Assembly: GCF_900010725.2 (NCBI RefSeq)
Contig: NZ_LR734871.1
Span: 56,168-120,167 of the forward strand
Length of the DNA stretch: 64,000 bases
Reading direction: 5' to 3'
Source of the DNA: Planktothrix serta PCC 8927
Lineage (GTDB): Bacteria > Cyanobacteriota > Cyanobacteriia > Cyanobacteriales > Microcoleaceae
The translations under genes were made by a program, and so were the position numbers. Shown here in pieces: positions 9,711-62,415 of this stretch. Every line of letters begins with the position of its first letter. Position 1 is the stretch's first letter. The notes below the pieces were generated by a model. That model was not told the DNA's origin. It was given only the letters and a program-made list of their open reading frames with translations, and did not search any database.

Positions 9711-10051
9711 AGCGTGATTCTCCGTTGATGGGTGATTAGGATAGGCTTGTTTATGTTCTCAGAAATTGTGCTGATCGTGAGTCGTATTTATACTCAGCGA
9801 TCGCATCCAGAAACCGGGTTTCTCAGCCCTAAATCTTGATTTTAGACCCTAGGGGAGAACTAGAAACTCGGTTTCTTAAATCTATATCAGCATTTATTTT
9901 GACACTAAAACAATAATAATGTTGTTTAATTGCAATGATTCTTAAATTTTGAGCAATATTTTGTTAAATTCTATCTAAATGTTAAGTTAAATCCCAAAGA
10001 CTTGACATAAAATTACAAATATGATCTGAGTTATTTCTATATGAGGGAAAA
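9711..10051. other. Intergenic region between chlB and the DUF29 genes, with AGAAACCGGGTTTCT repeats
   Basis: The two flanking genes are divergent, so both promoters must lie here. Two copies of a 15-bp palindrome, AGAAACCGGGTTTCT (9809-9823) and a one-base variant (9862-9876), are spaced 38 bp apart. The same palindrome recurs at 58.0-58.2 kb and inside a histidine kinase gene at 59.4 kb, so it is a dispersed repeat. No gene is visible. Confidence 0.6.
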
Positions 10052-56978: not shown

Positions 56979-57989
56979 ATGCAACCCACAAAAATTAAAA
57001 TTCAGCCCTCCCAGCCTTTGGTAGAACCTCAATCCTCTGGAGGTTTATTTAAACCCATTAAAGTTATCCTCGGTTTCTTAAAACCTTACTTAAAATGGAT
57101 GATTTTAGGGGGGACGTTATTTTTCTTGGCTGCTAATTTTAGAACCCATTGGCAAGCTATTTCAGAAATTGAAATCACTTCAACGGGATGGATGTATCTT
57201 TCCTTAGCCTTATTGGTGACGCTTTTGGCTCACCTTTGGTCGGGATGGGTTTGGTTAATTATTATTCGGATGTTCAAACAACCCGTTAGAACCCGTTGGG
57301 GATTACAAGTTTATTTAATCACAAATATTGCTAAATATCTACCCGGAAATATTTGGCATTTTTATGGGCGAATTGTAGCGATGAAGGATTCGGGTGTGGC
57401 TCTGGGAGTTGCAACTTTGAGTGTATTACTCGAACCGTTAATGATGGCAACAGCAGCATTAGGAGTGGCTTTAATTAGCTATCATAGCCCCTTTTGGATG
57501 TTGCAAATTCTCGGTTTAATTGCTTTGGGAATTGGGATTCATCCTCGAATTTTAAACCCTATTCTTAAATATTTAGAAAAATCAAAATTAAAAAAGAAAC
57601 CGCCTAATCTCCCCGAACCTCCTTTCTGTCAATTAGAGTCTTATCCGATTAAACCTCTCCTCGGAGAAGTGGGATTTATTGGATTAAGATGGTTAGGGTT
57701 TATGTTCACTTTATTGGCATTACAGCCCCTGCGTTTTGATCAGATTCCCCTATTATTAGGTGCTTATAGTTTAGCGTGGTTATTAGGGTTAATCATTCCG
57801 GGTGCACCAGGAGGATTAGGGGTGTTTGAAGCCACGGCTTTAGCCTTATTGAGCCATCAATTTTCTACTCCTATTTTATTAAGTGCGATCGCTTTTTATC
57901 GTTTAGTCAGTATTATCTCTGAAACCGTGGCTGCATTATTAGCACAATTAGATCGAAAATTCTTCGACAATTCTCATCCCATTCAATAA
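56979..57989 (+). CDS. Lysylphosphatidylglycerol synthase-like (UPF0104) membrane protein
   Basis: A 336-aa membrane protein with about eight helices. The conserved segments YLITNIAKYLPGNIWHFYGR and LLGLIIPGAPGGLGVFEATAL place it in the flippase-like UPF0104/AglD family. No catalytic MprF domain is attached, so lipid flipping or export rather than aminoacylation is likely. It is 13 bp after the peptidase gene and may form an operon with it. Confidence 0.9.
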   Translation: MQPTKIKIQPSQPLVEPQSSGGLFKPIKVILGFLKPYLKWMILGGTLFFLAANFRTHWQAISEIEITSTGWMYLSLALLVTLLAHLWSGWVWLIIIRMFKQPVRTRWGLQVYLITNIAKYLPGNIWHFYGRIVAMKDSGVALGVATLSVLLEPLMMATAALGVALISYHSPFWMLQILGLIALGIGIHPRILNPILKYLEKSKLKKKPPNLPEPPFCQLESYPIKPLLGEVGFIGLRWLGFMFTLLALQPLRFDQIPLLLGAYSLAWLLGLIIPGAPGGLGVFEATALALLSHQFSTPILLSAIAFYRLVSIISETVAALLAQLDRKFFDNSHPIQ

Positions 57990-57994
57990 GATGG

Positions 57995-58198
57995 AACAGG
58001 CATCTTGCCTGTTATGTTATCAGAAACCGGGTTTCTTCAACGAGATTTCTGTTATTCAGCAAAGATTAAGACAGAAACCCGGTTTCTTATTCCCTACTAT
58101 CTGTCAGCGATTTTTCCTAATATCAGAAACCGGGTTTCTTCAACGAGATTTCTGTTATGCAGCCAAGATTAAGACAGAAACCCGGTTTCTTATTCCCT
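57995..58198. repeat. Palindromes and tandem 78-bp GAAACCGGGTTTC elements
   Basis: First an AACAGGCATCTTGCCTGTT palindrome (57995-58013), then two near-identical 78-bp elements (58018-58095 and 58121-58198). Each begins TATCAGAAACCGGGTTTCTT and ends AGAAACCCGGTTTCTTATTC, inverted arms of a long hairpin. The second copy contains the stop codon of nanE. A partial copy sits in the coding sequence of a histidine kinase at 59.4 kb. Confidence 0.9.
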
Positions 58199-58879
58199 GT
58201 TATTAATAGCTTTTTGATACGCTTGAACAAGGAGATCAATTCCTGTAATCGCCGTTCCAACAACTACTGAATGGGCTCCTAAAGTTAAGGCTTTTTTAGC
58301 CATTTCGGGTGAGGAAATTCCGCCTTCACAAATAATAGGAACTTGCAACTGATTAACCATTTGGGTTAATAAATCAAAACCGGGAGGAGATTGATCTTGG
58401 GTGGCTTTTGTATAACCATATAAGGTGGTTCCCACACAATCTGCACCCGCTAATTCTGCTTCTATAGCAGCCTCTAAACTATCTACATCCGCCATCACCA
58501 ATTTGCCTAATTCTTGATGAATTTTGGCAATTAAATTCTTAACCGTTTCTCCTTGGGGACGTTCGCGGAGGGTGGCATCAATGGCAATGATATCAGCCCC
58601 CGATTTTGCGATCACTACGGCATCTTCAAATCGAGGTGTAATATATACATCAAACCCCGGAATTTGTTGTTTCCAGAGTCCAATAATCGGTTGAGAAACC
58701 CGTTGACGCACCGCTTCAATATGCTGAGGAGTATCAATTCTCACCCCTACAGCACCTCGATTAATAGCAGCTTTAGCCATAGCTGCAATCACAATAGGAT
58801 CATGCAAAGGAGAATCAACAGGTGCTTGACAGGACACAATTAATCCGTGAGTTAATGTTAACAAAAGATCAGATTTCAT
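58190..58879 (-). CDS. nanE: N-acetylmannosamine-6-phosphate 2-epimerase
   Basis: A 229-aa TIM-barrel protein that interconverts ManNAc-6-P and GlcNAc-6-P. Family segments visible: GLIVSCQAPVDSPLHDP, RGAVGVRIDTPQHI, ADIIAIDATLRERPQ, KLVMADVDSLEEA-type (VMADVDSLEAAIEAE), GTTLYGYT and PIICEGGISSPEMAKKAL. In cyanobacteria it often stands without other sialic-acid genes, as here, so it may serve amino-sugar recycling. The last codons and stop come from the neighbouring repeat element. Confidence 0.94.
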   Translation of the reverse strand: MKSDLLLTLTHGLIVSCQAPVDSPLHDPIVIAAMAKAAINRGAVGVRIDTPQHIEAVRQRVSQPIIGLWKQQIPGFDVYITPRFEDAVVIAKSGADIIAIDATLRERPQGETVKNLIAKIHQELGKLVMADVDSLEAAIEAELAGADCVGTTLYGYTKATQDQSPPGFDLLTQMVNQLQVPIICEGGISSPEMAKKALTLGAHSVVVGTAITGIDLLVQAYQKAINNRE

Positions 58880-58915
58880 GGTTAAAAATAAACCCTAAAG
58901 GACAAAAGTTGTTAA

Positions 58916-59041
58916 TATAGCAATCCGTGTAGGATTTGTGAAAAAATTCTGTAGGGGTTTGGTCTCCAAACCCTCTTTATATCTGGGTTTGGAGACCAAA
59001 CCCCTACGATAAAATATTACAACCTATTTAGGACTGCTATA
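58916..59041. mobile_element. TATAGCAATCC-type MITE, 126 bp, supplies a kinase stop codon
   Basis: Ends TATAGCAATCC / GGACTGCTATA and an inner hairpin (GTAGGGGTTTGGTCTCC / GGAGACCAAACCCCTAC) match the 104-bp element at 20.4 kb. Its right end covers the TAG stop of the leftward histidine kinase gene. Confidence 0.8.
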
Positions 59042-60935
59042 TCATTTTATTGAGTAACTCATCCGGTTGAATTGGTTTTGTTAAACAATCATAATTTTTA
59101 AAAGCGGAATTAAACTTAGATTCAGAATAACAGCTTTCATGAGTTAATGCTAAAATTTTCATCTTTTGGGTGTGGGGTTGATGATGGAGTTGCTTCAGAA
59201 TTTCATAACTGACTTGTCCCGGTAAATTCAGGTCAATAATTACCGCATCCGGTTGTAATAATTCAATTTGTTGAACGGCGGTAAACCCTTCCATTAACCA
59301 AACCATTTGATATCCGGCGGCGGTTAATAAATCACAAATTAAAGTCGCGGTTTCTTCATCCCGTTCAATTAAAACACACTTGCGGTGAGGAGAATTCAGA
59401 AACCGGGTTTCTGTCTTAATCTTGGCTGAATAACAGAAATCTTCTAGAGAGGTTTTAAAGGAGGATTCAGTCATTTTACCTTGAGATTTTTTAGAGATCA
59501 AGGGTAAAGCGGGTAAATGTACTGTAAAGATTGAACCCACTCCAATTGTTGATTGAAATTGAATCACGCCGCCATGTAATTCTACTAATTGTTTTGTTAA
59601 AGCTAACCCCAAACCTGTACCTCCATACTGACGATCATAACTCGAATTTAACTGCTGAAATTTTTCAAATAAAAGGGATTTTTTATCATCAGGAATGCCG
59701 ATCCCTGTATCTTCAACTTGCAAAATAGCAATATTATTCTCTACTTTTAGTTTCAAAGTGACTTGTCCCCCATCTGGCGTGAATTTGAGCGCATTTTCTA
59801 ATAAGTTAAATATAATTTTTTGAATGCGCTTTCGATCTCCTGTAAACCGAGTTTGATTTGATTTAAGTTTCAGATCAATCGTGAGATTTATTTGCTGAGT
59901 TTGAGCTTTTTCTTGAAAACTTTTTAACGTTTGGCGCACTAATTTGGATAGAGAAAATTCACTAATTTGGAGAACAGTTTTTCCCGCTTCTACTTGAGAT
60001 AAATCCAAAATATCATTAATCAATTCTAATAACTTTTCCCCACTATCATGAATTATTTTTAAATAGCGCTGTTGCTTATCGGGGGACATTTGTTGATTAG
60101 TTTGTTGTTCTCCTGAGTAACGTAATAATGTTTCGGAAATTCCAATCACACAGGTTAAGGGGGTGCGTAATTCGTGGCTCATCGCTGCTAAAAATTGGCT
60201 CTTAGCCCGGTTTGCGGATTGGGTTCCTAATAAAGCATCCTGAAGGGCTTGGGTTCGTTCTCGGACTCGTTGTTCTAGGGTTTGTTTTTGTTGTTGAACT
60301 TGAGCATAAAGTTGCGCCTGGTGAATCGCAATTGATAAGTGTTGGGTAATTTGGTTTAAAAACCGTTTTTCCATTGTTTCCCACTGACGTTCTTCTAAAC
60401 ATTGATGAGCAATTAATAAACCCCATAATTCCTCCTGAACAACAATCGGAACGACTAATATTGATTGAACTTGAAATTGTTTTAAAAACTCAATCAAACA
60501 AGTGGAGGAATGATAAGCTTCTTCAAGATTAGAAACGGATTGAATCAAGCCTTGGCGATATTTATTCTGAAAATCACACCCATATTTTAAACAATACTGA
60601 TCTTCGGATAAATTTAAAACCGAAAGAATCTGATCACAAGAACGCGCTTCGTAGGTAACTTTTCCGAGAGGACTCCCTAAAGCACCTTTTCTAAGGGACT
60701 TGGGTTGTTTTTTTGTTGTTGTTTCTCCTTCAAAATCAATCCTATCTGTCTTTAATATCGATGAGTGGTGTATATTAAATTGATAGATTAACAACCGATC
60801 CACTAATAAAAATTGGCGCAACTGCTCAACCGCCGTTGACAAAATCACCGATAAATCCAAACTCTGGCGAATCTGAGTTGTGACTTGATTCAGGAGTCGC
60901 TCTTGTTGAAGCTGCTGATATAGGGGATCGTCCAC
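59037..60935 (-). CDS. Hybrid histidine kinase (GAF-HisKA-HATPase-REC), altered by repeats
   Basis: A 632-aa soluble kinase. A phytochrome/GAF-like sensor domain (1-210: LVDRLLIYQF, ILVVPIVVQEELWGLLIAHQC) is followed by a coiled coil, HisKA (AAMSHELRTPLTCVIG), HATPase (IIFNLLENALKF, DTGIGIPDD, GTGLGLALTKQL) and a receiver (CVLIERDEETATLI, AVIIDLNLPGQ, LTKPIQPDEL). In the linker between HATPase and receiver, FCYSAKIKTETRFL is encoded by an in-frame piece of the 78-bp GAAACC repeat. The stop codon lies in a MITE end, so the last residues (LLNKMI) may differ from the ancestral protein. The sensor has no clear bilin Cys. Confidence 0.94.
   Translation of the reverse strand: MDDPLYQQLQQERLLNQVTTQIRQSLDLSVILSTAVEQLRQFLLVDRLLIYQFNIHHSSILKTDRIDFEGETTTKKQPKSLRKGALGSPLGKVTYEARSCDQILSVLNLSEDQYCLKYGCDFQNKYRQGLIQSVSNLEEAYHSSTCLIEFLKQFQVQSILVVPIVVQEELWGLLIAHQCLEERQWETMEKRFLNQITQHLSIAIHQAQLYAQVQQQKQTLEQRVRERTQALQDALLGTQSANRAKSQFLAAMSHELRTPLTCVIGISETLLRYSGEQQTNQQMSPDKQQRYLKIIHDSGEKLLELINDILDLSQVEAGKTVLQISEFSLSKLVRQTLKSFQEKAQTQQINLTIDLKLKSNQTRFTGDRKRIQKIIFNLLENALKFTPDGGQVTLKLKVENNIAILQVEDTGIGIPDDKKSLLFEKFQQLNSSYDRQYGGTGLGLALTKQLVELHGGVIQFQSTIGVGSIFTVHLPALPLISKKSQGKMTESSFKTSLEDFCYSAKIKTETRFLNSPHRKCVLIERDEETATLICDLLTAAGYQMVWLMEGFTAVQQIELLQPDAVIIDLNLPGQVSYEILKQLHHQPHTQKMKILALTHESCYSESKFNSAFKNYDCLTKPIQPDELLNKMI
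59398..59442 (-). repeat. Partial 78-bp repeat inserted in-frame inside the kinase gene
   Basis: 45 bp that match, on the minus strand, the second half of the elements at 58.0-58.2 kb, with at most one mismatch to each. 45 is a multiple of three and the frame stays open, so it adds about 15 residues to the linker before the receiver domain. Confidence 0.85.
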
Positions 60936-61107
60936 AGGCTTATATAATCGTCATTCTAAGGAATAAGGGGAGGAAGAAACAAAGCAAAAAGATTGTAGCC
61001 ATTTTTGTAGCTATTAACAAGTTTATGATTCTAAACTTGACAGAAAAGTCTTACCTGATCAGTATGATCTTGGAATAACCTCTGTTTGCGTTGAACCGCC
61101 AAAATGA

Positions 61108-62415
61108 ATGAGCAGCCAATCTCCCATAACTTTCGATTCTACCTTAGCTTATGTCCTTTCTCATGACTTTCAAGTCAGTTCTACCACTTTAGGACTGATT
61201 GTTGCTAAGAAGTTCGCCCAAAACCCTGATTTACCTGGAGTGATTGTCATGGATGGGGATCACTTTTTAGGGATGATTTCACGCGCAAAGTTTCGAGAAC
61301 AGATGAATACCCCGCAGCGAGAAAATGTTTATTTCAATCGTCCAATTCAGATGCTTCTCGATTATCTCAGAATTCCTGCTTTGATGCTGGATCAAAATTG
61401 TAAGATTACCAATGCTGTCAATAGTGTATTAAATCGAGCTAAAGAATTGATTTATGAGCCGATTGTTGTGGTTTTTGAAAATAATATATTTCGGATTCTG
61501 GATGTTCAAGCTTTGTTGTTAGCTCAAAATCAACTCTTAAATTATTCTCAGAATATAATTCAACAACAACAATCTCAAATTGAAAAATCTTTTCAAGGGA
61601 TTGAAAAGGAAAAAAACAAACTTAAAGAGTATAGTAAATATTATAAAGATAAACAGGAATTTGTTAAAAAAAATTATGAGGATTTTTTAAAAGTTAAGCA
61701 GCAAGAAATTTTTGAAACCGCCCAAAAAATCACTGAAATCAACGAAGACTTTTTACAAATTAGTCAGTTAGTAATTACCGAAACTAGCAAATCTTTTCAT
61801 TCAATTTTTTTAAATACCCATTCTATCAATGCTAATACCAATCAAATTAAAGAGATTAGCGAATTGATTTCTAAAGATTTAGAATCGATTGACTCAGCTT
61901 GTAATTTAAGTGGTAAGATTCTTCAACAAATTCGTCATCTGGCTGTACAAGCATCTATTATCGCCTATCAATCTCAATCAGCCCCCCAAGGATTTAGTAG
62001 AATTAATGCAGAAATTAATCAAATGCTCAATCAAATTTTAAATGTGAATCAGCAGATGAACAAAGTTGCTAATCATTTTAGATTTCATGTTCAAAAGCTT
62101 CAAGATATTTCTGAAAGTGAAACCAGTATCGCTCGCTCTATTCTCCTGAAAGTAGAACGAGCAGAAATGGTGGTTAAGGAATTAGAACACCTGATTGATA
62201 ATTATGACCCAAATTTGATTGTTTTAATCGTAGAACAAGCGAAAAATATTAGTCCTGAATTGATTCCAGCCTTCGCTCCTAAACTAGAAAAATTAGAACT
62301 TTCTCCCGAAGAAAACCTAACTTCAGACTCAAATCCTCAACATTTAATTGGGTTAATTGAACGCACCTTAAAACACCGAAATCATTCTCATTCTTCTCAA
62401 GGATCTCAAGAATAA
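61108..62415 (+). CDS. CBS-like/chemoreceptor-like coiled-coil protein without membrane helices
   Basis: A 435-aa protein. The first 140 residues look like a CBS-type pair (LPGVIVMDGDHFLGMISRAK; YEPIVVVFENNIFRILDVQA). A long helix follows (QQQQSQIEKSFQGIEKEKNK) and then a region that resembles a degenerate methyl-accepting chemotaxis signalling tip: IRHLAVQASIIAYQSQSAPQ followed by GFSRINAEINQML, compared with IR.IA.QTNLLALNAAIEAA in true receptors. No membrane segments and no HAMP. It could be a cytoplasmic adaptor of a phototaxis or pilus-type signalling array, or a non-chemotactic coiled-coil scaffold. The closing tail is polar. Confidence 0.7.
   Translation: MSSQSPITFDSTLAYVLSHDFQVSSTTLGLIVAKKFAQNPDLPGVIVMDGDHFLGMISRAKFREQMNTPQRENVYFNRPIQMLLDYLRIPALMLDQNCKITNAVNSVLNRAKELIYEPIVVVFENNIFRILDVQALLLAQNQLLNYSQNIIQQQQSQIEKSFQGIEKEKNKLKEYSKYYKDKQEFVKKNYEDFLKVKQQEIFETAQKITEINEDFLQISQLVITETSKSFHSIFLNTHSINANTNQIKEISELISKDLESIDSACNLSGKILQQIRHLAVQASIIAYQSQSAPQGFSRINAEINQMLNQILNVNQQMNKVANHFRFHVQKLQDISESETSIARSILLKVERAEMVVKELEHLIDNYDPNLIVLIVEQAKNISPELIPAFAPKLEKLELSPEENLTSDSNPQHLIGLIERTLKHRNHSHSSQGSQE

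Follow-up and report, generated by a model that had tools for sequence, protein, structure and literature searches.

How part of a dispersed palindromic repeat came to lie in frame within the gene of a signaling protein, and whether it matters there, is the question raised by a hybrid histidine kinase gene of Planktothrix serta PCC 8927. The gene lies in a 64,000-nucleotide stretch of contig NZ_LR734871.1 (positions 56168 to 120167; the window), for which a sequence-only reading had proposed that 45 bp of a mobile palindromic repeat lie in frame in the linker ahead of the receiver domain and that related copies occur at 58.0 to 58.2 kb. The features concerned, in window positions, are the following.

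59037 to 60935, minus strand: host gene, a hybrid histidine kinase of 632 amino acids with the domain order GAF, HisKA, HATPase_c, Response_reg (from the open reading frame, Pfam and orthologs in the genus)
59397 to 59444, minus strand: the whole nonorthologous block, 48 bp versus 15 bp in the orthologs, a net gain of 33 bp and 11 amino acids (from alignment with G003, G006, G007 and G009 and from the junction sequences)
59398 to 59442, minus strand: repeat copy truncated to its core and right arm (no left arm), in frame as part of kinase residues 498 to 513
59398 to 59412, plus strand: intact 15-nt arm AGAAACCGGGTTTCT, equal to the right arm of the unit on the minus strand (pattern match with 0 mismatches)
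58022 to 58087, plus strand: full 66-bp unit, intergenic, one base different from the kinase copy in the 44 nt compared
58125 to 58190, plus strand: second full 66-bp unit, intergenic, likewise one base different from the kinase copy in 44 nt
9809 to 9876, plus strand: 68-bp unit of the same family, outside any open reading frame (ORF) of ≥80 amino acids

The kinase gene and its in-frame repeat copy

The kinase ORF is free of stops across 632 amino acids, and its GAF, HisKA, HATPase and REC domains all obtain good Pfam scores. The nonorthologous block falls in the linker between HATPase_c (residues 366 to 476) and Response_reg (residues 522 to 630), and the proposed in-frame location ahead of the receiver domain was thus correct. 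The coordinates proposed for the repeat piece were exact: positions 59398 to 59442 (minus strand; positions 115565 to 115609 of contig C51 in the P. serta assembly, G000) match positions 22 to 66 of the repeat unit with 100% identity (45/45 nt), and the two complete intergenic units lie where related copies had been placed. At the level of sequence comparison, this confirmed that the 45 bp belong, as a truncated copy, to a REP-like family of palindromic repeats dispersed in genomes of Cyanobacteriales; the repeat identity of the piece stands, with the amendment that its left arm is missing. Stop codons interrupt four of the six reading frames of the 48-bp block, and the kinase is read through one of the two open ones. 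The predicted structure of the kinase, made with a three-sequence alignment (mean pLDDT, 39.6), is too poor for locating the insert. A search of positions 57500 to 61500 against Rfam gave no match.

At the site of SLEDFCYSAKIKTETRFLNSP in the window kinase, four full-length orthologs (G009, G006, G007 and G003), with 74 to 79% identity to this kinase, contain SLPSVYLNSP or a slightly different version of it, so that the five residues PSVYL occupy the place of residues 498 to 513. Orthologous sequence resumes on either side of the block. The comparison is between Planktothrix species and is based on the four full-length orthologs, as the contig of a fifth (G004) ends before the insert site. The 45 bp are missing from 4/4 of these orthologs, and the peptide is missing with them; its presence in homologs without the repeat, named beforehand as grounds for rejecting the reading, was not observed. 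The peptide that had been described as added by the element is therefore repeat encoded, but its net contribution relative to the orthologs is smaller, with 48 bp standing for 15 bp. The orthologs are diverged enough that this exchange may combine several events. The window kinase retains the receiver Asp and the conserved Lys. In the orthologs of G007 and G003, the receiver Asp (residue 568, in VIIDLNLPG) is replaced by Asn (VIINLHL), which suggests that the phosphorylation site of the receiver has been lost in part of the genus.

Structure and distribution of the repeat family

Units of the family have the layout AGAAACCGGGTTTCT, core, AGAAACCCGGTTTCT, with quasi-palindromic 15-nt inverted arms and a core of 33 to 38 bp, and measure 63 to 68 bp, mostly 65 bp. 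The arms are exact inverted repeats, and the cores are far more variable. Single-stranded units fold into strong hairpins (z-scores of −5.3 to −7.3 versus shuffled sequences). Arm-to-arm spacing peaks at 50 to 53 nt, 33-bp doublets being in the minority, and an arm with its 3-nt spacer amounts to 18 nt. Exact copies of the arm number 204 in the P. serta genome, a 6.27-Mb draft assembly in 155 contigs, against an expectation of ∼0.02 under a first-order Markov model and 0 for the backwards control; 67 two-arm units were listed. Within the 64-kb window, 7 matches with ≤2 mismatches were found versus 0.26 expected.

All 10 Planktothrix genomes contain the exact arm, in 57 to 319 copies each (backwards control, 0). 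Across the order, its distribution is patchy, with the arm carried by 62 of 148 genomes and at >1,400 sites in one of them (G069), and it is present in 0 of 78 sampled genomes from outside the order. One complete unit from outside the order was nevertheless found; it belongs to a Kovacikia minuta plasmid (Leptolyngbyales). This copy (L197, 1490 to 1592) is flanked by TAGGACTTACGCA on one side and nearly the reverse complement of that sequence on the other, an arrangement that looks like carriage within a larger MITE. Nesting in such an element is occasional rather than the rule, as an end of this type lies within ≤150 bp of only 3 of 142 P. serta arms.

The repeat avoids genes and is nearly always intergenic. 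Regions were fetched around most known P. serta copies (100 clusters, ≤2 mismatches per arm), and 12 of the 142 exact arms examined lie wholly within ORFs of ≥100 amino acids, although such ORFs make up 80% of bases; the count of 12 is a lower bound, with ∼60 sites on later contigs left out, and includes three arms that adjoin runs of N and are not in credible genes. In a nearly finished genome (G001), 6/64 clusters overlap ORFs of ≥100 amino acids. Several genes also terminate in an arm, and there the repeat may just provide the final codons. A unit makes up the 3′ terminus of a gene recognized by eye as TnpB-like (L119, G000:C62:32816-32884); this contig, C62, also carries the nearest relatives of the local C51 subfamily.

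Besides the kinase, three further unrelated P. serta proteins contain the repeat in frame. In the SBD_N/NBD_C protein, a full 68-bp unit is present in P. serta and G006 and absent from the orthologs of seven other species. MenC has a doublet in P. serta, G004 and G008; the G005 copy is a singlet, that of G007 is a degenerate trace, and five species have none. The TPR-FGE protein (L111 6550-6582, G000:C57:236149-236181) has a doublet in P. serta, G004, G007 and G009 and a singlet, 18 bp shorter, in G001, G002 and G006; all seven of its closest homologs (including L186 to L191) have one or two arms with the 18-bp difference in frame, and more distant paralogs have a degenerate doublet. Because arm and 3-nt spacer together are 18 nt, a change between one arm and two preserves the reading frame.

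Relation to known repeats and their machinery

In-frame palindromic inserts are known as RPE in Rickettsia and as GTAG/CGTC REPs in several bacteria (PMC3733652, PMC2229807). The likeness in kind to RPE that had been proposed for the kinase insert was borne out by the kinase, the SBD_N/NBD_C protein and MenC, in which palindromic inserts lie in frame in unrelated proteins and are missing from orthologs. Like the Planktothrix family, RPE are dispersed palindromes with terminal inverted repeats that occur both between genes and in frame in unrelated conserved proteins (PMC2229807; PMC3733652). They differ in size (105 to 146 bp [PMC2229807] versus 63 to 68 bp or 33 bp) and in host bacteria, and expression has been demonstrated for some RPE carrier proteins, whereas the Planktothrix copies are known from sequence alone. 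The likeness is one of phenomenon rather than kinship of elements, and no sequence kinship is claimed.

Layout and abundance recall REP sequences and REPINs (BIMEs), which are likewise short palindromes present in hundreds of copies, mostly intergenic but with intragenic members, and arranged as inverted hairpin doublets (PMC3116915, PMC3733652). REPs and REPINs are distinguished by a GTAG/CGTC tag and an association with Y1 transposases (RAYT), which have been proposed as the movers of REPINs (PMC3116915); neither feature was found for the Planktothrix family. The tag is absent from the arm, and no such consensus appears in flank base frequencies. Among the arms listed for P. serta, in a list complete as far as part of contig C49, none has a Y1 gene within ∼4.7 kb, and Y1_Tnp was undetected in the arm-rich genomes G003 (137 sites), G017 (636), G088 (110), G105 (125) and G118 (138), which leaves a RAYT-driven REPIN unsupported. 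Because the tag is lacking and several arm-rich genomes are without detectable Y1, the family was not filed as REP/REPIN: it is REP/REPIN-like in layout, and membership is not supported.

With MITEs of cyanobacteria and other bacteria, the family shares short length, a non-autonomous nature, terminal inverted repeats, high copy number and occasional fusion to ORFs (PMC2229807, PMC10969869). It differs in that target-site duplications were not seen. Part of the genome was inspected for a parent insertion sequence sharing the ends of the units, and none turned up there. Matching flanks of 2 to 4 nt were seen at only 2/49 units, so a classical MITE with target duplication is unsupported. No ORF between neighboring elements was recognized as a transposase in the part of the genome inspected, where the start of the longest ORF was viewed, and no parent transposon between arm pairs was recognized there. 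The small dispersed repeats (SDR) are very small, apparently mobile repeats of cyanobacterial genomes and are likened to the Planktothrix family by description only. The SDR are named in PMC3116915. A literature search, which covered few subscription papers, did not find the arm sequence in print. That the arm marks an undescribed mobile palindrome family of Cyanobacteriales, spreading without a Y1 transposase and repeatedly entering proteins, is a tentative suggestion that we regard as possible but doubtful.

Origin of the kinase copy

Over the 44 nt compared, a single base separates the kinase copy from either of the two units at a distance of 1.2 to 1.4 kb, against ≥8 for every other examined copy, and near-identity solely to these two neighbors suggests that it probably arose by local copying. 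A local burst, in which the neighboring array would have served in inverted orientation as the template for the kinase copy, is the simplest reading of the sequences. The earlier description of the kinase copy as mobile was itself inferred, and transposition suits this copy less well than local copying does. Neither G006 nor G009 has the two-unit intergenic array at the equivalent site.

The proposed sequence of events is that the array at 58022 to 58190 was copied locally into the kinase gene in the lineage of P. serta, most likely via template switching or ectopic repair during replication, and that 15 bp of linker thereby gave way to 48 bp, read in one of the two frames of the block that contain no stop. 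The insert would persist as the HATPase-REC linker tolerates added residues, and its peptide would be expected to be neutral for signaling; it probably has no role in the kinase. That in-frame inserts may be neutral because of their position in flexible linkers or loops has been argued before (PMC3733652). Spread of the family as a whole would need some trans-acting machinery. Taken together, a fragment of a REP-like repeat, locally copied in frame into a tolerant linker and neutral there, is in our judgment very probably the explanation of the kinase insert.

Two further features of the adjoining region were observed. The stop codon (58190 to 58192) of a nanE-like gene (58190 to 58879, minus strand) overlaps the arm of the second unit by one base, and the nanE-like orthologs of G006 and G009 finish in a different short tail. 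Between this gene and the kinase, a different palindromic family is present at 58952 to 59006, with TAGGGGTTTGGTCTCCAAACCC facing its exact reverse complement; the aligned gap at this site is ∼120 bp in P. serta versus ∼20 bp in G006 and G009.

A complete unit could instead have been transposed into the kinase by a trans-acting transposase, with later deletion of the left arm and some host sequence. The tightly set unit length (63 to 68 bp, mostly 65 bp) would fit a mobile unit, and the full 68-bp unit in the SBD_N/NBD_C protein is a known case of a complete unit in frame. This course would, however, require two mutations and survival or rescue of the frame, and the full units have no target-site duplications (2 to 4 nt of matching flanks at 2/49). 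Near-identity confined to units 1.2 to 1.4 kb away also stands against it, and we consider it rather unlikely. Decay of the gene, or an insert created by assembly error, might be suspected in a draft of 155 contigs, repeats being prone to misassembly, but the 632-amino-acid open frame, the good scores of all four domains, the retained receiver Asp and conserved Lys, and orthologous sequence on both sides make either very improbable.

Co-option of the peptide, through a useful change in kinase-to-receiver phosphotransfer or in linker length, draws on the lasting presence of family inserts across species, exemplified by at least one arm in all seven closest TPR-FGE homologs. The variation among singlet, doublet and absence in MenC and TPR-FGE nevertheless resembles tolerance rather than constraint, and the kinase insert is found in one species only; co-option is accordingly improbable. 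An origin of the peptide within the kinase family itself, with a purely accidental likeness to the repeat, has next to no probability, given identity to the repeat query at 45/45 nt and ∼0.02 arms expected per genome by chance, and absence of the peptide from the four orthologs rules out a native peptide.

The kinase insert is well supported as a clear new case of a process for which Rickettsia and other bacteria had provided earlier examples. With it, free-living cyanobacteria with large genomes join the groups in which palindromic repeats turn into protein, as the empty sites in sister species show. Orthologous positions across the genus provide a graded series of absent, singlet, doublet and full-unit states, which allows tests of how inserts originate and of whether they are simply tolerated by the proteins. 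The wide and patchy spread of the family with no obvious transposase poses the question of its machinery. If the family is indeed an undescribed mobile one that spreads without Y1, in-frame switching between one and two arms, possible without frame loss because arm and spacer make 18 nt, would make it a modest natural source of variation in the length of proteins.
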